Positions 735-63,340 of a stretch of DNA of 64,000 nt are shown here, piece by piece. Every line of letters begins with the position of its first letter. The stretch's first letter is position 1. Under the pieces are notes generated by a model. That model searched no databases and had not been told where the DNA came from. It saw nothing but the letters and a program-made list of their open reading frames with translations. Source of the DNA: Thysanoteuthis rhombus (taxonomy: Eukaryota > Mollusca > Cephalopoda > Oegopsida > Thysanoteuthidae); NCBI GenBank assembly GCA_963457665.1, contig OY735224.1:51556429-51620428 (forward strand), in the 5' to 3' direction. The translations under genes and the position numbers were made by a program.

Positions 735-2000
735 TTACGAAATCGAATGGCTTTGCCCGATCAATCAGCCGAGTGGGCTACAGATTCTCCTCTCTTTCTT
801 TACCTGGGTCTATCTCTGTACGTCTCTGGATGCTCCTGGTCACATTTTGGGCGTTACAACCTTCAAAATTTGTGTCACCATCTACCCACCTCTCCTCACA
901 AGTGTTTTTTTTTGGGGGGGGGGGTCTCTATGGTCATTTTGGACTAACAATGCCCGAATCTTAGGCTGGTATTTTTTTTGATAGATAATTTTAGATGATA
1001 GATCTATTTCTTTCAAATAATTTTAGATGATAGATCTATTTCTTTCAAATAATTTTAGATGATAGATCTATTTCTTTCAAATGATTTTAGATGATAGATC
1101 TATTTCTTTCAAATGATTTTAGATGATAGATCTATTTCTTTCAAATAATTTTAGATGATAGATCTATTTCTTTCAAATAATTTTAGATGATAGATCTATT
1201 TCTTTCAAATAATTTTAGATGATAGATCTATTTCTTTCGAATAATTTTAGATTAGAGATCTATTTGTTTTAGATAATTTTAGATAATAGATCTATTTGTT
1301 TTAGATAATAGATCTATTTCTTTCAGATAATTTTAGATAATAGATGTACTTTCAGATAATTTTAGATAATAGATGTACTTTCAGATAATTTTAGATAATA
1401 GATGTACTTTCAGATAATTTTAGATAATAGATGTACTTTCAGATAATTTTAGATAATAGATGTACTTTCAGATAATTTTAGATAATAGATGTACTTTAAG
1501 ATAATTTTAGATAATAGATGTACTTTCAGATAATTTTAGATAATAGATGTACTTTCAGATAATTCTAGATAATAGATCTACTTCTTTCAGATGATTATAG
1601 ATAATAAATCAACTCCTTTTAGATCATTTTAGATGATAGATCTATTTCTTCCAAATAATTTAAGATAATAGATCTTTTTCTTTCAGATAATTTTAGTAGA
1701 TCTACTTCTTTCAGATAATTTCAGATAGATCTACTTTTTTTTAGATAATTTTAGATAATAGATCTACTTCTTTCAGATAATTTTAGATAATAGATCTACT
1801 TCTTTCAGATGATTATAGATAATAAATCAACTCCTTTTAGGTAATTTTAGATGATAGATCTACTTCTTTTGGATAACTCTAGATAATAGATCTATTTCTA
1901 CAAGATAATTTTGTAGATAAATTAAGATGAAAGATCTATTTTTAAAAAATGATTATTACTGGTACCTGTGCTGGGTATATAGATTTTTTCAATTCTTATC
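735..2000 (+). mobile_element. Family D element with internal minisatellite (copy D1)
   Basis: The left part (735-965) holds the family D signature: CCCGATCAATCAGC, GTGGGCTACAGATTC, CTCCTGGTCACATTTTGG, and GGTCTCTATGGTCATTTTGG just before the array. The array follows, and then a tail containing CTGGTACCTGTGCTGGGTAT, which corresponds to TCTGGTACA..GGCTACGGTG at the end of other copies. No coding capacity. Non-autonomous by inspection; the family's transposase source is unknown. Confidence 0.75.
966..1945 (+). repeat. 29-32-bp minisatellite inside family D element D1
   Basis: Tandem units are roughly 32 bp in the first third (ATAATTTTAGATGATAGATC then TATTTCTTTCAA). They change to 29-bp units (ATAATTTTAGATAATAGATG then TACTTTCAG) at about 1325-1560, then to degenerate mixed units. 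The two sub-blocks are internally homogeneous, so local amplification occurred twice. Non-coding. Confidence 0.95.
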
Positions 2001-2848
2001 ATCTATCTTTGGTTTGCAATACAAAAACATTCAATGGGATAAAAGAGCCATAGTCTCATTTTTACAGAGACATTGAATGAATCAATGGTCTATGGCTAAA
2101 AATGTTTCAACACAATGCATTTCTGATCTTACCATTGACAGAGAATTAATAGATATTCATGTACGGATATATACCTATAATGAAAATCATTGGAGTAATT
2201 TTGAAAAAAAGAAAAGAAAAATAGAACCCATTTTTGTCCACCAGAAAAGAACTTCTTAGTTCTTATTGATTGATAGTACAAGTGGGTTTAAATTGGTATA
2301 TAGTCCTAAAAGGAAAAATAGTAAGAAGTACAGAAACAATATATTCCCAGGGACTTCTATGATCGTTGTTTGATTTTTTTTTGAAAGAAAAAAAAAAAAA
2401 AAAAAAATCACCGCTACCTACAACAGACCGGTTTAATCACTGTTGCTGGGTTTAGGCGGCTGTTGTGTTCTGACATTCATATTTGTCTGTCTATCTATCT
2501 AAATGTGATAAAGAAACAGTAGGCTTACTTGAATTGTAACGACATGGATGCCCGAGAGTTAGAGACATTTCTGGCCCCTAACACCCAAGACTGATTCTAG
2601 AACATTGAAATAAGGCAGTGCCAACTGGAAATCCCTGTACCCAGCACATTTATCAAAATACTCCTGCAACAAAGTCAGCATGACTCAATCAATTCCATAT
2701 TTCGGAGTTGTACAGCGAGAGTCCCCCAAATGTTTTAGATCACTGACCCCTTCATGTTCTTATCAACCCCGAGGCATGTTACAATAAATACCAAAACTGC
2801 TAATAATATTTATAATCAAGTCGACTTCAGTTTTAGACAAAGTTCCAT
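2001..2848. other. No recognisable gene; AT-rich unique sequence
   Basis: Contains a poly-T/poly-A switch at about 2370-2406. A phrase at 2700-2780 (GAGTCCCCCAAATG, GATCACTGACCCCTTCATG) resembles the ends of hAT-type MITEs, but no partner end was identified. A 60-codon open frame at 2077-2259 is lysine/isoleucine-rich and without motif, so I do not call it. Confidence 0.5.
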
Positions 2849-3262
2849 ACAAACAACCATAGCCACCAAAATTGTCAATAGGTTCTATCTCTTTTTATAT
2901 GTGTATGTGTGTGTTTGAGTGTTCCTGTGGCCCTGGCCATACTGTTTTGTCTACAGACTTGGAAATTAGCATAAATACTTCACAAACTCTATCTAAAAAT
3001 TTTTTTTTCAATTTTTTCATTTTTTAAACTTTTGGGGGTCTTATTGTGATGGGTTTATCAATAACATCTAGATTTTGGTGAATCTAGATGTTTCTTGATT
3101 CTGCAGAATCTAAAAGTTTTTTTCACTATTTTTCCAATGGAAAACGCCAGTGATGTCATAACTAAAAATTTATTCTGAACATATCCATTCTTCGATAGGA
3201 ATTTTTTTTTTTTTACATGACTTCAAATTTTGACTCTATGGTCATTTAATTATTGACTGTGA
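2849..3262 (+). mobile_element. Family I TIR MITE (copy I1)
   Basis: Starts AAACAACCATAGCCACCAAA and ends near TCATTTAATTATTGACTGT. The inner part has GTGTTCCTGTGGCCCTGGCC, the ACTTGGAAATTAGC..ACT phrase, a short hairpin around ATCTAGATTTTGGTGAATCTAGAT, and CAGTGATGTCAT. Other copies lie at 39814-40232, 57750-58171 and 60043-60290. A length near 415 bp, no ORF and inverted ends fit a non-autonomous DNA transposon. Confidence 0.75.
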
Positions 3263-3339
3263 AACCAATTTTCATTTCAATTTGTTTCATTATTTTTTGC
3301 AATTGTAAAAGAGAAAAAATAAATTTGAGCAAACCGGAA

Positions 3340-3425
3340 TGTCTACGGCCAAATTTTTCCCCAAAAGGCCAAAATTTGCCAAATCTGGCCTTCTTGGAGA
3401 AAATTTTGCCATAAAATGGCAACTT
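3340..3425. repeat. GGCCAAA-rich repeat (family J)
   Basis: A run of GGCCAAA/TTTGCCA words (AAAAGGCCAAAATTTGCC, AAATCTGGCC, AAAATGGCAAC) matches the vocabulary at 29540-29610 and 30455-30565. It falls inside a 113-codon antisense open frame (3290-3631) that shows no domain and is probably fortuitous. Confidence 0.5.
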
Positions 3426-3654
3426 GTTTTCAAAGATGATGCATAAATTAATTGGGGCCTAGATTTAGTTAGCGAGAACATTTCTAGGATGAACATTGAA
3501 AATATCATCTCGAGAAGATGTATTGATTTTATTGTAGTACTAAGGTATATCACCTCGAAATTCACTGAAAGATTAATTTGTGAATGACAGGAGATGACAT
3601 TTTTATTTCTTACCCATTTATTTTGACGCAAGTGGTAAATATTTCATATAAGGA

Positions 3655-3790
3655 AAATGGGGCAGCCGCAATTGTTTATTCTATTTACGTTGTCTAATTT
3701 GAATGATATATTAACCGTATAACGACAGGAAATCATTTCAGATAAGTTTCTGTATAATAGAACGCAATTTATAATTCATTCTGTCGGACT
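3655..3790. repeat. Dispersed repeat K (pair with 61810-61950)
   Basis: Shares TTGTCTAATTTGAA.. ..ATATTAACCGTATAACGAC.GGA.ATCATTTCA with the sequence at 61820-61900, in the same orientation, with comparable spacing for about 130 bp. No coding potential. Family unknown. Confidence 0.7.
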
Positions 3791-3948
3791 AAATGATGTC
3801 CATTTCTTAAATACATAGAGTTGCATTGAAAGAGACGAAAAAAACAGATTAAATGAGATGAGAATTAGGGTTCAAGGTAGTTATTTGGTCTTTAGCTCAT
3901 CAGTGGGCTGTTTAACACAATGGTAAGTGCATTGCTAGGTCAAAGTGG

Positions 3949-3951
<3 letters not shown>

Positions 3952-3984
<33 letters not shown>

Positions 3985-4170
3985 GATAGTAATTAAATAA
4001 CTGAGTCATTCACAGACAGCTGTTTTGTTGTATTACAACTCTTCAGTGTGGTTGTAGACTATCCAACATCCAGTACAAGGTAGGATCGAAACCTTCGCTT
4101 CAGTCCCAGAGGCTGGCATTTTACCTATGCCCTTCGCAGAGCTGGACGGTCAGTAAGCCTGAACTTGAGC
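3952..4170 (-). mobile_element. tRNA-like SINE E with (TA)n tail (copy E1)
   Basis: Read on the minus strand, a body with a B-box-like GGTTTCGATCCTACC (at about 4082-4096) leads to CTACAACCACACTGAAGAG and then AACAGCTGTCTGTGAATGAC, before a (TA)n tract at 3952-3982. Copy E2 at 4475-4720 is nearly identical; E3 (31868-32145) and E4 (36369-36642) are diverged relatives. The box and the simple-repeat 3' tail are typical of a polymerase III SINE. I did not confirm a good A box. Confidence 0.7.
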
Positions 4171-4343
4171 AATATATATTAACTTAGTGGACAAAATGGA
4201 AAATAGTGGTAATTGAATCAAGTTTATCATACTAATATCTTTTGCTTTAGTCAAAGTAGTAATTTTAAATCAAATAATATTGAAAAGTTTGGCTTTTTTT
4301 TCCTGAGTAAATTATGTCACATAACATCATGGTATTTTGATCT

Positions 4344-4465
4344 ATGAAGAAACCGCAAAACAAAAATATTGATCCACATATTCAAGGAATTAGAAGGGTT
4401 ACAAAAAAAGATTATGGGGGATTTCCAGGGTTATGTTTTTGTGCTATGAAAGGATCAGTTATTGT
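4344..4465 (+). repeat. Dispersed repeat F, resembling sequence downstream of the Penelope-like GIY-YIG remnant
   Basis: About 120 bp (CAAAACAAAAATATTGATCC, GGTTACAAAAAAAGATTATG, TTTTTGTGCTATGAAAGGAT) aligns with 52445-52570, which lies directly 3' of the Penelope-like endonuclease. This is probably a 5'-truncated fragment of the same element. The 64-codon open frame here runs into the (TA)n tract and is not a gene. Confidence 0.55.
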
Positions 4466-4473
4466 GTGCGTGG

Positions 4474-4490
4474 GTATATATATATACATA

Positions 4491-4524
<34 letters not shown>

Positions 4525-4720
4525 ATGATAGTAATTAAATAACTGAGTCATTCACAGACAGCTGTTTTGTTGTATTACAACTCTTCAGTGTGGTTGTAGA
4601 CTATCCAACATCCAGTACGAGGTAGGATCGAAACCTTCGCTTCAGTCCCAGAGGCTGGCATTTTACCTATGCCCTTCGCAGAGCTGGACGGTCAGTAAGA
4701 CTGAGTTTAAGCAATATATT
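4474..4720 (-). mobile_element. tRNA-like SINE E (copy E2)
   Basis: Almost base-for-base repeat of E1 at 3952-4170, including the CAGACAGCTGTTTTGTTGT block, the B-box region and the flanking (TA)n (4474-4522, interrupted). The close match over ~190 bp at ~540 bp distance suggests recent insertion of both, or duplication of the segment. Confidence 0.75.
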
Positions 4721-4808
4721 TACCTACACACAATTCCCCATCCACCAGAGTGCTCTATTCCGAAGTTCGAAGAGCATTGCAAGTTATCTCGCTTAAAGAG
4801 TGCTCAAC

Positions 4809-4853
4809 CCTGAATGAGGGAGCGCTAATATATATATATATATATATATATAC
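4809..4853. repeat. (TA)n microsatellite at fold-back edge
   Basis: About 20 TA dinucleotides abut the left edge of the fold-back repeat that starts at 4863. Confidence 0.9.
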
Positions 4854-4862
4854 ATATGAATA

Positions 4863-5363
4863 AATAGTAGAATGCGGATTTGTCACACAAACTAGCTCAT
4901 GTATCATGAGGCCCGAAGAAGGCAGAAACATGAGCTAGTGTGTGTAGCAAATCCACATTCTACTATTTATTTCCAGCTCTACTCTAAAACAACTTAACTT
5001 CAAGAGTAAAAAGTAGTATGTATTGAGCACTCTATGAAATAAATCCATTACATTTCAGAAGTGGCTTTATATTATTGATATATTATTATATTATGTTTTA
5101 CTGCTAGCCTGATTTGTACCACATATACTGTGTGTATATATATATATAGAGAGAGAGAGAACAAATCAGGTTTGCAATATAGCATAATCTAAAACCATAT
5201 ATTATAATGTAAAGCACTGTCTGATATGTGATGGATTTATTGCGTAGAGTGCTCGATACATTCAACTTTAAACTCCAAGAGTTAAGATGGTTTAGAGTAG
5301 AGTTGGAAGTATTGTAGAAAGTATATTTGCTACACAAACACGTTTATGTTTCTGCCTTCCCAG
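4863..5363. mobile_element. Fold-back repeat Q with nested hairpin
   Basis: Two nested inverted repeats. The inner one is at 4863-4972: AAATAGTAGAATGCGGATTT is matched in reverse complement by AAATCCACATTCTACTATTT, with arms of about 40 bp around a spacer containing CCCGAAGAAGGC. The outer one pairs about 4913-5121 with about 5163-5363; arms share GAAGGCAGAAACAT, CTCTACTCTAAA, GAGCACTCTA and CCTGATTTGT. The spacer holds a TA/GA microsatellite. No protein is encoded; the 77-codon antisense frame at 5104-5337 is arm sequence. Confidence 0.85.
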
Positions 5364-5629
5364 AAGATTAGAACTATAAAAATGAACATGGGATTGCAAA
5401 AAATTGGCCTTATCAAAAAGGGTTTGCGAAAAAAAATCATGCTAAACTGGACCCTTACTTTTTGCCATTCGTAAGGAACAAAAAGTAAACTTGGTTACAG
5501 TAGTATTCTTAATAAATTCTTTTTTTTGGTATGTACTTCTATATTGCAAAGTTCTAAAGACAATTCAGATTTTTGGCCATTTTTTTGGCCAGAAAAATCT
5601 TCACCTATCCGGCAACCCTGAGTTTGGCT
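5364..5629. other. Unassigned AT-rich sequence
   Basis: No gene or known repeat recognised apart from a short GGCCATTTTTTTGGCC palindrome near 5574. The open frame 5491-5781 continues into repeat L and has no domain. Confidence 0.5.
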
Positions 5630-5830
5630 TTTCATTGATTGGCAAGGTTACAAGAGAGTTAAAGATGAAAAATATCATCACGCCAAAGGTAGTATCATTC
5701 CAGCGGAAAATTGACATTTCAGATCATAGGCAGACCTTTACAAAATCAGAGTATCACATACAAAATAACACTAGAAAGTAGCTTTATTTAGTAAGTGATT
5801 TGTATATGATGTGGTTCATTATAGTGTAGT
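5630..5830 (+). repeat. Dispersed repeat L (copy 1)
   Basis: Matches 40440-40600 over GAAAATTGACATTTCAGATC, AATCAGAGTATCACATA and GAAAGTAGCTTTATTTA in the same order. This copy is longer by an internal ~50 bp. Non-coding; class unknown. Confidence 0.7.
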
Positions 5831-6074
5831 TAACAGTACAAGGAGGTTGGATGCCTTTTCCCTTCAGAATCTTTGGTAAGGGGATAACCATGTCCTAATG
5901 TAAGGGGAAGTAAACACATAAAAAAACACTTCTGATCAGGTACCAAATAATTCTGAATTCATCGTACATTTTCATATTGTAGTTTATATCGAAACACTAT
6001 AAAAAAAAATTATCAGCAGGCTTATTTATAGAGCTTACATTGAATTAGAAATCAAAACATAATATTCGTCCTTA

Positions 6075-7785
6075 CATATATGAATTACCATAGTCAGCGT
6101 GAGTACCAAAACTAATTATCTAAAAAAAATGATCTTATATCTGGAAATTATCTACAAAATTGTTAGAGAAATAGATCTTTTATCCAAAAGTATCTTTTAA
6201 AACATAGATCTTTTATCTAAAAGTATCTTTTAAAACATAGATCTTTTATCTGAAAGTATCTTTTAAAACATAGATCTTTTATCCAAAAGTATCTTTTAAA
6301 ACATAGATCTTTTATCCAAAAGTATCTTTTAAAACATAGATCTTTCATCCAAAAGTATCTTTTAAAACAGAGATCTTTCATCCAAAAGTATCTTTTAAAA
6401 CAGAGATCTTTCATCCAAAAGTATCTTTTAAAACAGAGATCTTTTATCCAAAAGTATCTTATAAAACATAGATCTTTCATTCAAAAGTATCTTTTAAAAC
6501 ATAGATCTTTCATCCAAAAGTATCTTTTAAAACATAGATCTTTTATCCAAAAGTATCTTTTAAAACATAGATCTTTTATCCAAAAGTATCTTTTAAAACA
6601 TAGATCTTTTATCCAAAAGTATCTTTTAAAACATAGATTTTTCATCCAAAAGTATCTTTGAAAACAGATCTTTTACCTAAAAGTATCTCTTAAAACATAG
6701 ATCTTTCATCCAAAAGTATCTTTTAAAACATAGATCTTTCATCCAAAGTATCTTTGAAAACAGATCTTTTACCTAAAAGTATCTCTTAAAACATAGATCT
6801 TTCATCCAAAAGTATCTTTTAAAACATAGATCTTTTATCCAAAAGTATCTTTTAAAACATAGATCTTTCATCCAAAAGTATCTTTTAAAACATAGATCTT
6901 TCATCCAAAAGTATCTTTTAAAACATAGATCTTTCATCCAAAAGTATCTTTTAAAACATAGATCTTTCATCCAAAAGTATCTTTTAAAACATAGATCTTT
7001 CATCCAAAAGTATCTTTTAAAACAGAGATCTTTTATCCAAAAGTATCTTTTAAAACATAGATCTTTTATCTGAAAGTATCTTTTAAAACAGAGATCTTTT
7101 ATCCAAAAGTATCTTTTAAAACATAGATCTTTTATCCAAAAGTATCTTTTAAAACATAGATCTTTCATCCAAAAGTATCTTTTAAAACATAGATCTTTCA
7201 TCCAAAAGTATCTTTGAAAACAGATCTTTTACCTAAAAGTATCTCTTAAAACATAGATCTTTCATCCAAAAGTATCTTTTAAAACATAGATCTTTCATCC
7301 AAAGTATCTTTGAAAACAGATCTTTTACCTAAAAGTATCTCTTAAAACATAGATCTTTTATCCAAAAGTATCTTTTAAAACATAGATCTTTCATCCAAAA
7401 GTATCTTTTAAAACATAGATCTTTCATCCAAAAGTATCTTTCAAAACATAGATCTTTTATCCAAAAGTATCTTTTAAAACATAGATCTTTTATCTAAAAG
7501 TATCTAAAAAATATCAGTACAAGATTTGGGTGGTTTGTTGGTTCGAAATGACCATGGAGACCCAAAAGAGCACTTTTTAGAAAAAAAAAACAACAAAAAA
7601 CATAAAACACTCTTAGATGATGCCTGGGTGTGAACTCATGCAAATTTTCAAGGTTGTAGCCCCGAAAATGAAACCAGGGGTGCCCAGAGAGACACAGACA
7701 AGAAGTGAGAAAAGAATCTGTAGTTCGCTTGGCTGGTTGGTTAGTTAAGCAGCCCATTTGTGGGGCGACGGCAATTTGAAAGATG
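6075..7785 (-). mobile_element. Family D element with internal minisatellite (copy D2)
   Basis: The left end is TATGAATTACCATAGTCAGC followed by GTACCAAAACTAATTATC, matching the ends at 35230 and 41360. The array spans 6170-7510. The right unique part (7511-7785) reads as reverse complement of D1's left part, with ATGACCATGGAGACCCAAAAG, GTTGTAGCCCCGAAAATG, GAATCTGTAG and the end CCCATTTGTGGGGCGACGG. An apparently complete element of about 1.7 kb, mostly minisatellite. Confidence 0.8.
6170..7510 (-). repeat. 33-bp minisatellite inside family D element D2
   Basis: About 40 units with consensus TAGATCTTTTATCCAAAAGT then ATCTTTTAAAACA (33 bp). Because 33 is divisible by 3 and the unit lacks a stop in one antisense frame, it yields repetitive open frames (6217-6480 and 6773-7201) with an 11-residue period (KDLCFKRYFW-). 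These are artefacts of period length. A variant block with TTGAAAACAGATC and ACCTAAAAGTATCTCTT recurs at about 6655-6790 and 7210-7345, showing a higher-order copy step. Confidence 0.95.
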
Positions 7786-13022: not shown

Positions 13023-13319
13023 TTTTTGTCTATGTCTTCAAAAACACTAGAGAGGACCTTGTTCATAACCCAAATCTCTAACAACTTAGCTATATCACTT
13101 GGACTCGGAACCCTTTCGTTAGGAATTGTTCTCACGTCAAGCCTTGACAATAATTTTTGAATGTCTCCAGAGGAGTAGTTGTTTGGACCTCACCCTTATA
13201 TTAATACCCCCATGTCTACAAAAAAAAGTAGAGAGAACATGGTTCATAAACCAAAGCTGTAACAAGCCGTGTTTTCAAGTCTATAATCCTGGCTTCAGCT
13301 ATCGAATCACTGTTACCCT
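13023..13319. repeat. Diverged ~184-bp direct duplication
   Basis: The block TAGAGAGGACCTTGTTCATAAC at about 13050 recurs as TAGAGAGAACATGGTTCATAAAC at about 13230, with similar flanks. Short open frames here (for example 12933-13160) run across repeat boundaries and are not supported as genes. Confidence 0.5.
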
Positions 13320-13895
13320 ATAAACGGCCCAAACAATGGGCTAGAGATTCTTCTCTTTTTGAGTGACTGTGTCTATGTGGAAGTATTTATGTTTCCCCTG
13401 ATGCTCTTGTTTACATTTTGGGGGCACCATCTACAAACTTCTCCCGACCCCCAAGTACTTCTTGGGTCTCTATGGTTATTTTGGACCAACAATGTCCAAA
13501 TCTCGTGCAGGTATTTTTTTTTAGATGATTTTAGACAAACGATCTATTTACGGGCTAAGGTGATTCGTTTATGCAAGGTAGGGATATTCAATTTATTTCT
13601 ATTAGACGAAGTTTCATGAACCATTATTTTCATTTTTCTATCTTCTGACTCCTTTTAAAGTTCATCTTGTTTCACTGGTTGCTTTTTAGAGCAACTTTTG
13701 CTCAGACCTGATTTCCCTTAGGCAGTGAGCAAACCCTGCTTCCCGGCTGAGCCTTGAATCCTCAGCTCGATTGTTAGAGCAGGTATCAACGGTATTCGTT
13801 AGATAATTTTTTTGATGAAAGATCAATTTCTTTAGATAACTTTAAAAAAAAAAATGAATGATCCATTCTGGTACACGTGTGGCTATCACAGTGTT
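13320..13895 (+). mobile_element. Family D element without an array (D4), in two pieces
   Basis: 13320-13592 carries GGCCCAAACAATGGGCTAGAG, GGTCTCTATGGTTATTTTGG and CAATGTCCAAATC, then a single minisatellite-like unit (TTAGATGATTTTAGACAAACGATCTATTT) and the terminal GGGCTAAGGTGATTCGTTTATG. A second end-like piece at 13795-13895 has one more unit and TTCTGGTACACGTGTGGCTAT. It shows the 'empty' state of the locus that is expanded in D1-D3. Confidence 0.65.
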
Positions 13896-16000: not shown

Positions 16001-16459
16001 TCTCCCCTTTTTAACCTCATTTTGATTTTTTTGTTTGTGGCCCACGTGTATATCATGTCTTATAAATAGAAAGTTGGCCGTTCAGGCCGATAAATCTCAG
16101 ATATTTACTCCGCCAGTAGAAAGTGATATAACAAGAATGGAATTCTAAAGATGTGTCCACCGAAAGGGGAAATGTAGACTGGAGCGGACCACGGAAATGG
16201 AAGCCTGCAGGTGATGGGGACCGCTAGAAGAGTAACTATGAATTATACGATTTATATTTGAGAATAATGATTTTACTCAATAATTCAATGCTTCTGAATG
16301 ATGATGGCGGAATTTGGTTGAGAAGAATTGGTTGGAAAAAAAAAAAGGATAAGTGATTATTCTTTGATGACATCAGTTCATGAGGGACAGACAAATCCCC
16401 TTACAGGGATGTGTGTGTGAACACATCTAAAAAACAATGACAATACATACATAACATGC
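16001..16459. other. Unassigned sequence with a decayed duplicate near 18100-18260
   Basis: GTCCACCGAAAGGGGAAATG, GAGTAACTATGAATTATACG and ATGCTTCTGAATGATGATGG resemble, in order, pieces at 18145-18260. No gene seen. Confidence 0.45.
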
Positions 16460-17490
16460 ATATATGAATTAGCACAGCCCAACCTTGAGCCAGAACTAAC
16501 CATCTGAAATTATCTGAAAAATACAACTTTCTATCTAAAAATTATCTAAAAAAATACTTTCTATCAAAAATTATCTGTAAGATTGATTTTTTATAAAAAT
16601 ATCTGAAAGATGGATCTTTTGTCTGAAATTATCCATAAAAGTAGATCTTTTATCTAAAATTATCTATAAAAATAGACCTTTTATCTAAAATTATCTATAA
16701 AAATAGACCTTTTATCTAAAATTATCTATAAAAATAGACCTTTTATCTAAAATTATCTATAAAAATAGACCTTTTATCTAAAATTATCTATAAAAATAGA
16801 CCTTTTATCTAAAATTATCTATAAAAATAGACCTTTTATCTAAAATTATCTATAAAAATAGACCTTTTATCTAAAATTATCTATAAAAATAGACCTTTTA
16901 TCTAAAATTATCTATAAAAATAGACCTTTTATCTAAAATTATCTATAAAATAGATCTCTTATCTAAAATTATCCATAAAATAGATCTCTTATCTAAAATT
17001 ATCTATAAAATAGATCTCTTATCTAAAATTATCCATAAAATAGATCTCTTATCTAAAATTATCTATAAAATAGACCTCTTATCTGAAGTTATCTATAAAA
17101 ATAGATCTCTTATCTAAAGTTATCCATAAAAATAGATCTCTTATCTAAAATTATCTATTAAAAATAGATTTCTTATCTAAAATTATCTATAAAATAGATC
17201 TCTTATCTGAAATTATCTATAAAATAGATCTCTTATCTCAAATTATCAATGAAATAGATCTTTTATCTCAAATTATCTATAAAAATAGATCTCTTATCTA
17301 AAATCATCTATAAAAATAGATCTCTTATCTAAAATTATCTATAAAAATAGATCTTTTTATCTAAAATTTCCAATGGTTGTACCCCCCCCCCCCCCAATTG
17401 ACCAGGAGACACTTGCACATACAGAAGAGCTGATAGAGAAGAATCTGTAGCCCACTTGGCTGGTTGGTCGGCTGGGTCTTTTGTGGAGTT
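16460..17490 (-). mobile_element. Family D element with internal minisatellite (copy D3)
   Basis: Left end TATATGAATTAGCACAGCCC then GAGCCAGAACTAACCATCTG, array 16505-17368, then a C-run, CAATTGACCAGGAGACACTTG, AGAGAAGAATCTGTAGCCC and the right end CTTTTGTGGAGTTTCAGTG. Same architecture as D2 but with a different array unit. The right unique part is shortened: the GGTCTCTATGG box is gone. Confidence 0.8.
16505..17368 (-). repeat. 30-31-bp minisatellite inside family D element D3
   Basis: The unit is TAGACCTTTTATCTAAAATT then ATCTATAAAAA (31 bp), almost invariant at about 16640-16930. It then shifts to TAGATCTCTT..ATCTATAAAA units of 30 bp. Homogeneous blocks again indicate recent local expansion. 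Confidence 0.95.
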
Positions 17491-17675
17491 TCAGTGAGTA
17501 TCAGAGACCAAAACTGTCAATATAAGTTTCCACAGTTTCAAAGTTTGCCTAGCTGGCTATGTACGTATGTATGTATGTATGTATGTATGACATGTACAGA
17601 CCACTCTAATGGAGTCAGGGGGCTAAAAACTTCAACATTTATTCCTTATTATGTCTACAAAAAACGCCTCCTGGC
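17491..17675 (-). mobile_element. Family A 3' part, antisense, with (GTAT)n
   Basis: AGAGACCAAAACTGTCAATA, AGCTGGCTATGTAC, a (GTAT)n tract at 17564-17588, AATGGAGTCAGGGGGCTAAA and TTATTATGTCTAC are the reverse complement of family A's 3' half. The short frames 17464-17730 and 17676-17888 are made of this repeat. Confidence 0.75.
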
Positions 17676-33033: not shown

Positions 33034-33804
33034 TAGGAGGAAGGGAATTTCTCATTTTAAATGATCAATCAGAAAAAAAAAACCCCTGTGTCACCCGATG
33101 AGATAACCTAATGGTGGGTTGACTCATACATGAAGATTTTGTTTTGGCATCCAATGTGAAAAGAGAAAGAATTTTGTTCAACTTGATGATTAATTAATAG
33201 ATTGCCTTTTTGCAGTCAACTTCTTGCTCAAGGTGACTGGGGTCTCTTCTCAAGGATTTAACCCAATTGGCACCCTCATCCTTAAGGTAGGGTGGGTGGG
33301 ATCCCAAATAAATTGTGACGATGAAGGAGACACTAAGTGTTTGATGTATGATATTTATTCTTTATTCCTCTACTAATTTCACTATTTTTACTAATTTTAG
33401 TGGTTGACTAAAAGTAATTCTTGTATTTTGATGTATTTTTCAATGTTGTTCATTATAGTATTATGTACTGAGATGCAGAATAAAGAATTAAATGTAGATA
33501 AATGAAGATTTCTTTGAAAATATTCAGCTTTATTTCATTTTTCAATATCTAACATTTTTAATTCTTTTTATTCTTGTTCCCAAAATATGAAATTCTTTCC
33601 TTTTTGCTGTTTGAATACTGAAAACAATATTTTTCCAGACTTACTATAAATACACCACTACAGACTGCAATTTCCACGGTATCAAGCAAATAAGTCGAAC
33701 TATCATAGCTAATTCTTCACGATACATAAAAAATCAGTTGATATTATTATTTCTATTTCATATCTATAAATATAATATCCGTACCAGGCATAAATGAATC
33801 ACCC
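33034..33804. other. Unassigned ~770 bp, no gene
   Basis: GC-richer patch at 33230-33310 (CTTAAGGTAGGGTGGGTGGG), then AT-rich DNA. No motif recognised. Confidence 0.4.
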
Positions 33805-34225
33805 TGGCCCTAGTATACAACCAATGCATTCTCCCGATTGTTACTTATGGAGCCGAAACATGGAATCTAACCAAGAGTGCACATGAGAGAATCATGCTCA
33901 ACCTCACATGGAGAGATCACAAGACAGCACAATATACCAGAAATAAAACAGGGGTCAGAGACATCATAAAATCTATGAGAAAACTCAAATGGCAATGGGG
34001 TGGTCCTGTTGCAAGAATGAAAGACGACCGATGGACATCGAGACTCACAACATGGATCCCGAGAGATCACATGCGAAACTGAGGCCGACAAAATACAAGA
34101 TGGAGAGATGAACTAGACAAGTTAAGAAAATACTGGCTCCGTGACACCCATGATAGAAAATCATGGCGGATCTGGGAGAAGGTCTATGTCCAACGACGGA
34201 TGTTGAAAGACTGATGAAGATGATG
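33805..34225 (+). mobile_element. RTE-clade LINE 3' end (R4)
   Basis: CCAATGCATTCTCCCGATTG encodes the QCILPIV piece, then YGAETWNLT. The open frame 33894-34082 gives MLNLTWRDHKTAQYTRNKTG, KLKWQWGGPVARMKDDRWTS and TTWIPRDHMRN, and further RWRDELDKLRKYWL to the end. Compared with R3 there is an in-frame ~36-bp deletion between WNLTKS and AHERIM. The 3' end is GACTGATGAAGATGATGAA. Otherwise the least damaged RTE piece here. Confidence 0.92.
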
Positions 34226-34475
34226 AACCTAAAATAACCATAGAGACCCACCTACTTTTTTGAAAAAAAAAAAAAGAAAAAAAAAAAAACCCCTAACAAA
34301 TTGTCTTTAGATGGTGCCTAATGGTGTACTTCTGCAAACTTTAAAAGGTTGTAGCCCCGAAAATGTAACTAGGAGCACCTGGAGACAAACACAGACGACC
34401 AGAGAGAGAAGAATCTGTAGCCAACTTGGCTGATGGGCCTGACTATTTGTGGGGCTATGGTAATTCAACTTCATA
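34226..34475 (-). mobile_element. Family D right part (D7), antisense
   Basis: Directly abuts the LINE tail. CCATAGAGACCCACCTAC, an A-rich run, GATGGTGCCTAATGGTGTAC, GTTGTAGCCCCGAAAATG, GAAGAATCTGTAGCCAAC and the end TGTGGGGCTATGGTAATTC. No minisatellite. Confidence 0.8.
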
Positions 34476-35172: not shown

Positions 35173-35214
35173 ATTTCACACTTCAACAGAATAATACTTC
35201 CATTTTAAATTTGA

Positions 35215-35622
35215 ATCAAATATCTGTACCTGAAATACATAAATCACCATAGCCTGCATGTGTACCAAAACTAATCATCAAAAAAAAAAAAAAAAAAATC
35301 TCATACCAAAAATTACCAAAAAATTCCAGCATAAAATTTTGGGGTTATCGGTCAAAGATGACTAAAGAGACCATTACCCAAACACACTTCCTTGGAAAAA
35401 CAAACAAACAAACAAACAAAAGATACGTCTAGAGGGTGCATAGTGGTGTCCTCATGTAAATTTCTAAGGTTGTAGCCCCAAAAATGAGACCAGGGGAGCC
35501 TAGAGAAGGATACACACACACACAAGGACAATGACTATCAAAGAGATATGAATCTGTAGCCAACTTGACTGGTTGGTCAGGCTGGCCATTTGAGGAGCTA
35601 CAGTGATTTGATTGGATGGATT
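35215..35622 (-). mobile_element. Family D element, complete but without array (D8)
   Basis: Both ends present: GTACCTGAAATACATAAATC then ACCATAGCCTGCATGTGTAC on the left, and TTTGAGGAGCTACAGTGATT on the right. Between them are a poly-A run and CTCATACCAAAAATTACC (single degenerate unit), TGACTAAAGAGACC, a (CAAA)n run at 35400-35420, GGGTGCATAGTGGTGTCC, GTTGTAGCCCCAAAAATGAG and GAATCTGTAGCC. Confidence 0.82.
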
Positions 35623-42559: not shown

Positions 42560-42808
42560 TGGGAAAAATAATAGGAAGGAAGGAGAGAGAAAGAAAGGAA
42601 GGAAAGAAGGAGAGAGAAAGGAAGGAAGGAAAGAAGGAGAGAGAAAGGAAGGAAGGAAAGAAGGAGAGAGAAAGGAAGGAAGGAAAGAAGGAGAGAGAAA
42701 GGAAGGAAGGAAAGAAGGAGAGAGAAAGGAAGGAAGGAAGGAAGGAGAGAGAAAGGAAGGAAGGAAGGGAGGAGAGAGAAAGGAAGGAAGGAAGGAAAGA
42801 AGGAAGGA
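42560..42808 (+). repeat. 28-bp GGAA-rich minisatellite
   Basis: Units of GGAAGGAAGGAAAGAAGGAG then AGAGAAA (27-28 bp) repeated about nine times, ending in plain GGAA. The 123-codon RERKEGKKE open frame (42526-42897) is a product of the repeat, not a gene. Confidence 0.95.
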
Positions 42809-42811
42809 GAA

Positions 42812-43111
42812 TTGGTCTGGCTGGCTATGTATTTATCATGTGTACATTCCTACTCCACATAAATGAATCACTACAGCCCACTCGTGTACCAGAATGAATA
42901 ATCTAAATTATAATCAGAAAAAAAAAAAACAAAAAAACTTTCATCTAAAATATTCTAAGAAAACACCAAAAAAATAATACTTGTGCTGTTTTTTTTTATA
43001 ATTTTTTTTTTACTCCTAGATAATCAGTTCTGGTACATGCACAGGCTACGGTGATTCATTTATGTAGGGTAGGAAAGTGCACATGATAAATACATACATA
43101 GCCAGCCAGAC
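42812..43111. mobile_element. Fold-back of family D ends nested in family A (D10)
   Basis: Inverted arms at about 42812-42906 and 43018-43111: TTGGTCTGGCTGGCTATGTA, TCATGTGTACATTCC, CATAAATGAATCACTACAGC and GTACCAGAATGAATAATC on the left, with their reverse complements on the right. The ~110-bp centre is A- and T-rich with one degenerate array-like unit. The outer ~25 bp of each arm is family A tail (CATAGCCAGCCAGACCAA). Confidence 0.88.
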
Positions 43112-62439: not shown

Positions 62440-63340
62440 AATTGAGTGAGACAGGAAGGAGAAAAATGGAGGAAAGTGAGAGAGAGGGAGAAAAATGGAG
62501 GAAAGTGAGAGAGAGGGAGAAAAATGGAGGAAAGGGAGAGAGAGGGAGAAAAATGGAGGAAAGTGAGAGAGAGGGAGAAAAATGGAGGAAAGAGAGAGAG
62601 AGGGAGAAAAATGGAGGAAAGAGAGAGAGAGGGAGAAAAATGGAGGAAAGGGAGAGAGAGAGGGAGAAAAATGAAGCAAAGAGAGAAAGAGAGGGAGAAA
62701 AATGAAGCAAAGAGAGAAAGAGAGGGAGAAAAATGAAGCAAAGAGAGAAAGAGAGGGAGAAAAATGAAGCAAAGAGAGGGAGAAAAATGAAGCAAAGAGA
62801 GAAAGAAAGGGAGAAAAATGAAGCAAAGAGAGAAAGAGAGGGAGAAAAATGAAGCAAAGAGAGAAAGAGAGGGAGAAAAATGAAGCAAAGAGAGAAAGAG
62901 AGGGAGAAAAATGAAGCAAAGAGAGAAAGAGAGGGAGAAAAATGAAGCAAAGAGAGAAAGAGAGGGAGAAAAATGAAGCAAAGAGAGAAAGAGAGGGAGA
63001 AAAATGAAGCAAAGAGAGAAAGAGAGGGAGAAAAATGAAGCAAAGAGAGAAAGAGAGGGAGAAAAATGAAGCAAAGAGAGAAAGAGAGGGAGAAAAATGA
63101 AGCAAGACATGAAAGAGATGGAGAAAGATGAACAAAAGTAAGAGAGAGAGGGAGAAAAGTGAAGCAAAGAGAAAAAGATGAAGAAAAGTGAGAGAAAGAT
63201 GAAGGAAAGTGAGAGAAAGATGAAGGAAAGTGAGAGAAAGATGAAGGAAAGTGAGAGAAAGATGAAGGAAAGTGAGAGAAAGATGAAGGAAAGTGAGAGA
63301 AAGATGAAGGAAAGTGAGGGAGAAGAAGAAGAATGAAAGA
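62440..63340 (+). repeat. GA-rich minisatellite, three unit types
   Basis: Block 1 (62455-62665): ~31-bp units GAGAGAGAGGGAGAAAAATG then GAGGAAAG(T/G). Block 2 (62665-63105): ~31-bp units GAGAGAAAGAGAGGGAGAAA then AATGAAGCAAA. Block 3 (63180-63320): 23-bp units AAAGATGAAGGAAAGTGAGAG. Overlapping open frames on both strands and in two antisense frames (up to 371 codons, SLSF/FIFL-rich) come from the biased composition and are not genes. Confidence 0.95.

Follow-up and report, generated by a model that had tools for sequence, protein, structure and literature searches.

An abundant short element of Thysanoteuthis rhombus with one internal 31-bp seed, probably expanded into private minisatellites at separate loci

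HINE elements have subterminal inverted repeats of 12-15 bp, T-rich or TT insertion sites and microsatellites, and in some copies simple or tandem repeats fill about half of the element (PMC4067079). HINEs with tandem repeats at their centre are already known, as are minisatellites derived from other transposons (PMC7492417; PMC9659126). Helitrons are reported in Octopus vulgaris, and the word minisatellite is absent from the accessible part of that report (PMC13282606). The present analysis concerns a 64-kb stretch of DNA (the window) from the 2.73-Gb genome (514 contigs) of the cephalopod Thysanoteuthis rhombus, and a short element of about 400 bp, here named D, three copies of which (elements 1, 2 and 3) contain a minisatellite array. 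A reflectin motif was matched 15 times in this genome, with 13 of the matches on contig C45; reflectins are a mark of coleoid cephalopods. Among the papers listed by literature searches on cephalopods and on minisatellites in transposons, none described such a cephalopod family with central repeats. A minisatellite within a non-autonomous inverted-repeat element is also said to occur in a bacterium, in a miniature inverted-repeat transposable element (MITE) of Porphyromonas gingivalis.

The sequence-only reading of the window had compared D with Helitron-related and pearl elements, a comparison that holds structurally (modules, subterminal inverted repeats and a central array). Like the Cg_HINE/Pearl elements of bivalves, D has an array between two modules, subterminal inverted repeats, a microsatellite and many dispersed copies; the bivalve arrays are reported to be homogeneous (PMC7492417). 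Monomers of the bivalve elements are predominantly 140-180 bp, whereas those of D are about 31 bp; 56% of the bivalve arrays have 2-3 monomers, 15.6% have at least 5 and the longest has 29.3, whereas D arrays reach 254 units; and the bivalve monomer clusters (the 13 largest were studied) are common to many loci, whereas D variants are often a locus's own. Minisatellites of SINE B1 (short interspersed element), Alu and long terminal repeat origin likewise arise from a short internal stretch of a transposon, but these are mammalian retroelements, whereas D is one cephalopod family with one seed position and roughly hundreds of loci (PMC9659126). It is unusual that a single-unit seed, present in most of the copies read, goes together with many private arrays and with units of 31 bp.

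We conclude with good confidence that D is an old and abundant non-autonomous element whose internal seed was expanded in situ in a minority of copies, separately at different loci, by slippage or unequal exchange. The arrays lie at a fixed position, where unit number grades from 1 up to about 254, their units are private and homogenised, and the array-bearing copies do not cluster.

Genome-wide repeat counts given here are lower bounds. A first look with the copy at 35202-35622 as query gave 4262 candidate places in the genome. Module profiles were built from 16 copies (left module, about 60 bp; right module, about 270 bp, with a CA microsatellite of variable length), and the right module was matched 15 times in the window at E<1e-5, about once per 4.3 kb. 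Copies without arrays mostly have 30-70 bp (1-2 units) between the modules, as read from a core-length table of 48 rows in which some rows are mispaired or enter one copy twice. Their core consists of an incomplete unit and then a complete one, TTATCTAAAAAAATAGATCTTTTATCTAAAATTATCTAAAA, so that the seed amounts to about 1.6 units of the 31-bp sequence at one internal place. A direct repeat of about 12-15 bp (TTATCTAAAAAAATA) recurs in the seed at a spacing of about 31 bp, as read from the alignment.

The array side was read in 30 of 39 other copies matching the right module of element 1, the remaining 9 being left out because the match stopped before query position 258. As no more than about 20 bases of the query lay inside the array, bias of the set by array length is only weak. 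Units per copy were 0 in 6 copies, 1 in 16, 2 in 4, 3 in 2, 11 in 1 and 12 in 1; grouped, 22/30 copies had 0-1 units, 6/30 had 2-4 and 2/30 had 11-12. One copy (L002) scored as 2 units, from the 90 bp read, has 3.7 units by Tandem Repeats Finder (TRF). The left module was present in 24 of the 30.

Element 1 lies on the minus strand, with the right module at 746..972 (profile positions 1-250, E 2.3e-41) and the array, W1, at 983..1945 (about 30 units of 29-32 bp). TRF places this array at 983-1912 (period 32/29, 30.3 copies, score 1074), with degenerate units outside these bounds. The left module of element 1 is decayed and scores under the profile threshold; a diverged remnant (ACTGGTACCTGTGC...) was read by eye on the minus strand at about 1946..1978. 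Element 2, on the plus strand, is made up of a left module at 6062..6120 (E 2.2e-10) containing the subterminal inverted repeat, an array, W6, at 6171..7505 (about 41 units of 33 bp; TRF period 33, 40.8 copies, score 2243; units 30-33 bp, nearly all 33) and a right module at 7511..7779 (profile positions 1-271, E 1.8e-57). Element 3, also on the plus strand, has its left module at 16451..16504 (E 2e-4), its array, W16, at 16502..17368 (about 28 units, mostly 30-31 bp; TRF period 31, 28.3 copies, score 1208) and its right module at 17364..17498 (E 8.2e-22). TRF thus confirmed the three arrays at the coordinates given in the sequence-only reading. The same reading had assigned them the same flanking unique parts; the right module is near-complete in elements 1 and 2, but the flanking parts of element 3 are the same only in part, as it retains right-module profile positions 124-267 alone and lacks positions 1-123. 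Two copies said to have at most one unit at the array site were found, one with a single unit at 13301..13588 on the minus strand (core 13515-13548, 34 bp) and one with a degenerate single unit at 35220..35612 on the plus strand (core 35280-35322, 43 bp). Between 735 and 17500 the window thus holds three arrays of 28-41 units inside 17 kb, as against more than 10 units in 2/30 of the other copies; this crowding may be due to selection by the reader or to a regional effect.

Arrays were also picked by unit sequence alone. A two-unit pattern (a full unit and the start of the next) matched 1184 places genome-wide and its reversed control 0, so that the pattern is beyond chance. The first 100 listed places make up 37 loci, from which proportion gives a rough figure of about 440 loci in the genome. 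The 23 loci fetched comprised 10 loci outside the window with at least 2 matches to the W16 pattern (from a pool of 23 other W16-pattern loci) and 13 of the first 14 two-unit-pattern loci (from the 37 listed). The left module was found in 9/10 and 13/13 loci of the two sets (22/23) and the right module in 9/10 and 11/13 (20/23); both were present at 19/23, at least one at 23/23 and neither at 0. The fixed internal position expected from the window is borne out by these 19 arrays between both modules and by the 1-2 units that array-less copies hold there. Array size in the unit-selected loci ranges from about 2 to 254 units, the larger arrays being those of L076 (93 units), L080 (with L091 and L092; about 128 units, 4.1 kb), L078 (159 units, 5.0 kb) and L079, the largest (about 254 units, 8.1 kb). 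In L079 (C38:41106000-41115600), which is of satellite scale within one D copy, TRF detects periods of higher order (96, 129 and 225 bp). The array of L094 (C1:2340200-2340950) starts with ancestral-like units, then changes to another unit type, AAAATTATCATTAAAAATAGATCTACCAGTT (11.3 copies, 97%), and continues to the end of the stretch.

Units of the window arrays were matched against the genome. All 31 matches of the 33-bp W6 unit at up to 2 mismatches fell in its own array, as did all 10 matches of the W1 unit (a 41-mer) at up to 3 mismatches and all 9 matches of the W16 unit at up to 1; W1 and W6 units are private in the genome at 2-3 mismatches, and W16 units only up to one. In 21 arrays (383 units) the nearest neighbour of a unit came from its own array in 74% of cases, whereas shuffling (100 rounds, maximum 8.8%) gave 6%, and the mean unit distance was 0.14 within and 0.21 between arrays. 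For this comparison no more than 30 units were sampled from any one array, unit length was restricted to 26-36 bp, and loci of about 2-4 units (L002, L003, L083, L095, L096, L099-L101 and L104) were left out, with L097 and L106 kept. Identical adjacent units were more frequent than identical random pairs (W1, 0.29 vs 0.06; W6, 0.20 vs 0.14; W16, 0.29 vs 0.10) in a plain comparison made with no significance test; such an excess is expected from turnover by slippage or unequal exchange. By eye, the left-edge units are the most degenerate in the W6 and W16 arrays. Homogenisation took place after insertion. With some exceptions, given below, the D arrays are locus-specific, transposon-derived minisatellites, grown inside individual copies and made of private units.

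A tree was built from 61 right modules, with matches of fewer than 150 profile positions left out (which took W16 and L077 off the tree) and L091-L106 fetched afterwards. The 10 copies with arrays of at least 10 units need 10 state changes on this tree, the maximum. Mean right-module distance was 0.316 among array-bearing copies and 0.291 among the rest, and array-bearing copies are at least 24.5% apart. The closest pair among the 61 is not under 16%, and units inside some arrays are only 3-8% apart. Taken together, the fixed place, the private units and the absence of clustering indicate that one seed was expanded and homogenised separately at different loci. This agrees with the proposal of the sequence-only reading that an internal segment of about 31 bp was repeatedly and independently expanded, and the nearest-neighbour test bears out the locus-specific unit variants that it anticipated.

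The first duplication would have followed insertion. In a minority of inserted copies, slippage or unequal sister-strand exchange at the direct repeat of the seed would add a complete second unit; more events of either kind would lengthen and homogenise the array at that locus and fix a local linker variant, and arrays would grow and turn over more easily once the second unit exists. Slippage or unequal exchange as the step itself is suggested by the direct repeat and by the pattern of adjacent units. Hairpin-driven expansion was rejected as a general cause: the fold of two units was marked in W6 only (z -4.1), with z of -0.6 in W16, 0.6 in W1 and -1.2 in the consensus seed against shuffles. 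Higher-order structure in W6 was likewise rejected, as a run as long as its repeated 4-unit block occurred in 334/2000 shuffles, and so was coding content of the array, whose open frames repeat the 33-bp (11-codon) unit and were judged an effect of the period.

Several points weigh against expansion in situ. The tree is star-like and was made with no shuffled-label control, so that the absent clustering, taken alone, counts for little, and old, inherited arrays could also have become private through concerted evolution. The W16 pattern at 2-3 mismatches reaches 23 other loci (the 10 fetched are all D loci), because many loci retain near-ancestral units; the W16 unit is the nearest of the three window units to the ancestral one. 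Four of the 21 arrays (L062, L084, L102 and, by a hair, L105) show no excess of within-array likeness. Modules are also incomplete or misplaced at some loci: L079 is without a right module in about 1.8 kb past its array (with L093), L080 without a left module and L106 without a right module in its stretch, and L082 is irregular, with a partial right module between the left module and the array.

Array-bearing source copies might instead have transposed with their arrays, which were later homogenised at each locus, the short copies being contractions. Central arrays are known in HINE relatives (PMC7492417), and near-ancestral TTTAAAAA linkers are common to several loci, both of which fit such a history; we nevertheless regard it as unlikely, given that 22/30 of the copies read contain one unit at most, that array-bearing copies are spread over the tree of right modules at distances of at least 24.5%, and that two of the three window units are found nowhere else in the genome. 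Expansion during rolling-circle transposition, by template slippage on the replicating 3' side, would have each insertion born with its own array length. The homogenised private variants are not explained by this without later turnover in situ, and right modules at least 16% apart (n=61) contrast with units only 3-8% apart in some arrays; although the Helentron-like ends, the lack of a visible target duplication and the central arrays of relatives are in its favour, it is very improbable. The sequence-only reading had named as one refuting alternative that the arrays are an older satellite and that fragments of D inserted into it. No supporting point was found for such a satellite, dispersed in the genome, which is contradicted by the presence of at least one module at every unit-selected array, by module order and orientation that are the same in 19/23 (one, L082, being irregular) and by the 1-2 units at the same place in array-less copies, and we give it practically no credence. 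Separate expansion of the seed in inserted copies is preferred to each of these.

Read in reverse orientation, D starts with (T)ATCAAATCACYRTAGCC and ends with GGCTAYRGTGATTCATTTATGCRAGGTACRGATAT(T). A 13-bp subterminal inverted repeat, AATCACYRTAGCC, is conserved across copies and lies about 4 nt from one end and about 23 nt from the other; with D in HINE orientation, a T flanks the element in 28/46 copies at one end and in 28/41 at the other. HINE and DINE-1 elements (PMC4067079) share with D the subterminal inverted repeats, the T-rich insertion and the microsatellite, and the 5' repeat of mite HINEs lies 2-4 nt from the end, as compared with about 4 nt in reverse-oriented D. D is unlike them in its 3' repeat, about 23 nt from the end (38-60 in mite HINEs), in a weak 3' palindrome and in arrays that are optional and locus-private. 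The sequence between the 3' repeat and the 3' end, where HINEs have a palindrome, is TATGCGAGGTACGGATA and forms a short mismatched stem; the 61-nt end folds no better than shuffled sequences (z 0.27).

Empty sites were sought for 43 copies with both ends, 5 of which had a relative spanning the junction. At the cleanest, L004, the D copy lies inside a separate 117-bp tandem repeat (1901-2215 of L004), other units of which give the empty site TATTGAAAATGGC; a duplication here could not exceed 1 bp, and the target, GAAAATGGC, is without TA. The empty relative is 3-7 bases longer than the joined flanks at L004, L025, L026 and L006, contrary to a target duplication, which would make it shorter; at L011 each side shows a gap of one base. 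The comparisons at L025, L026, L006 and L011 have a likeness of 67-75% and leave an ambiguity of a few bp. The defined target duplications anticipated in the sequence-only reading were not visible at the 5 insertion sites compared, and a sixth, L038, allows up to about 3 bp.

HINEs insert between Ts and make no target duplication. The lack of one at the sites compared points away from a MITE with terminal inverted repeats and towards an element of Helentron type, and D is fairly likely to be a HINE-type rolling-circle derivative, that is, a non-autonomous Helentron. The genome contains 78 matches to Helitron Rep, of which 71 have in-frame stops. D modules were not found at 8/78 Rep copies (6 examined at +-1.5 kb and 3 in 9.9-kb stretches, one being common to both), and one Rep locus, L088, has an isolated inverted-repeat match with one mismatch; with no autonomous partner among these 8 copies, HINE membership is likely rather than established. 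D density appears uneven, with no D module in 29.7 kb around three Rep loci (L086-L088). There is some chance, which we put well below that of a Helentron derivative, that D is instead a MITE that has terminal inverted repeats and moves by cut and paste, as its inverted repeats at both ends and the absence of an autonomous Helentron with D ends at the 8/78 Rep copies examined would suggest; the account of the arrays would be unchanged, since such a MITE is compatible with separate expansion of the seed. Such a MITE (Tc1/mariner, hAT and the like) would have a fixed target duplication, whereas the repeats of D are subterminal and asymmetric and no duplication of 2 bp or more is present at L004; the T-rich flanks, the target without TA and the four more diverged sites with no visible duplication also speak against a MITE. 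SINE insertions have a target duplication of 7-20 bp and a 3' tail. A SINE was rejected, as no 7-20 bp duplication was present at 5 sites. A motif near the right end may be A-box-like.

The most striking feature is how many arrays were born in parallel from one seed. Birth and growth of minisatellites are usually examined locus by locus; here some hundreds of separate starts (a rough proportion) appear to share the same 31-bp seed and element context, with single-unit copies as controls, and birth rate, first duplication, homogenisation and the effect of the neighbourhood could become measurable by comparison. A possible Helentron-like family with central repeats is also added for a cephalopod. 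We suggest, with little confidence, that the seed is an intrinsically expandable module, as opposed to any short direct repeat, and the family a genome-wide minisatellite factory with hundreds of births. If so, some arrays would reach satellite scale (8 kb) and could supply material from which heterochromatin or regulatory arrays are formed.

In a further D copy of the window, at 33774..34468 on the plus strand, the core is swapped for about 418 bp of coding-like sequence of the long interspersed element (LINE) kind. This sequence is of non-LTR retrotransposon type (YGAETWNLTK...) and ends in GATGATGAA; it matched no Pfam family at E<=1, and is either a fragment that D captured or an insertion, truncated at its 5' end, that was accompanied by a deletion. 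Two left modules at 42844-42903 and 43019-43073 lie in opposite orientation about 115 bp apart and resemble a fold-back of D ends. Purine-rich minisatellites unrelated to D are located at 62458-63331 (31/21-bp units) and 42573-42797 (27-bp units).

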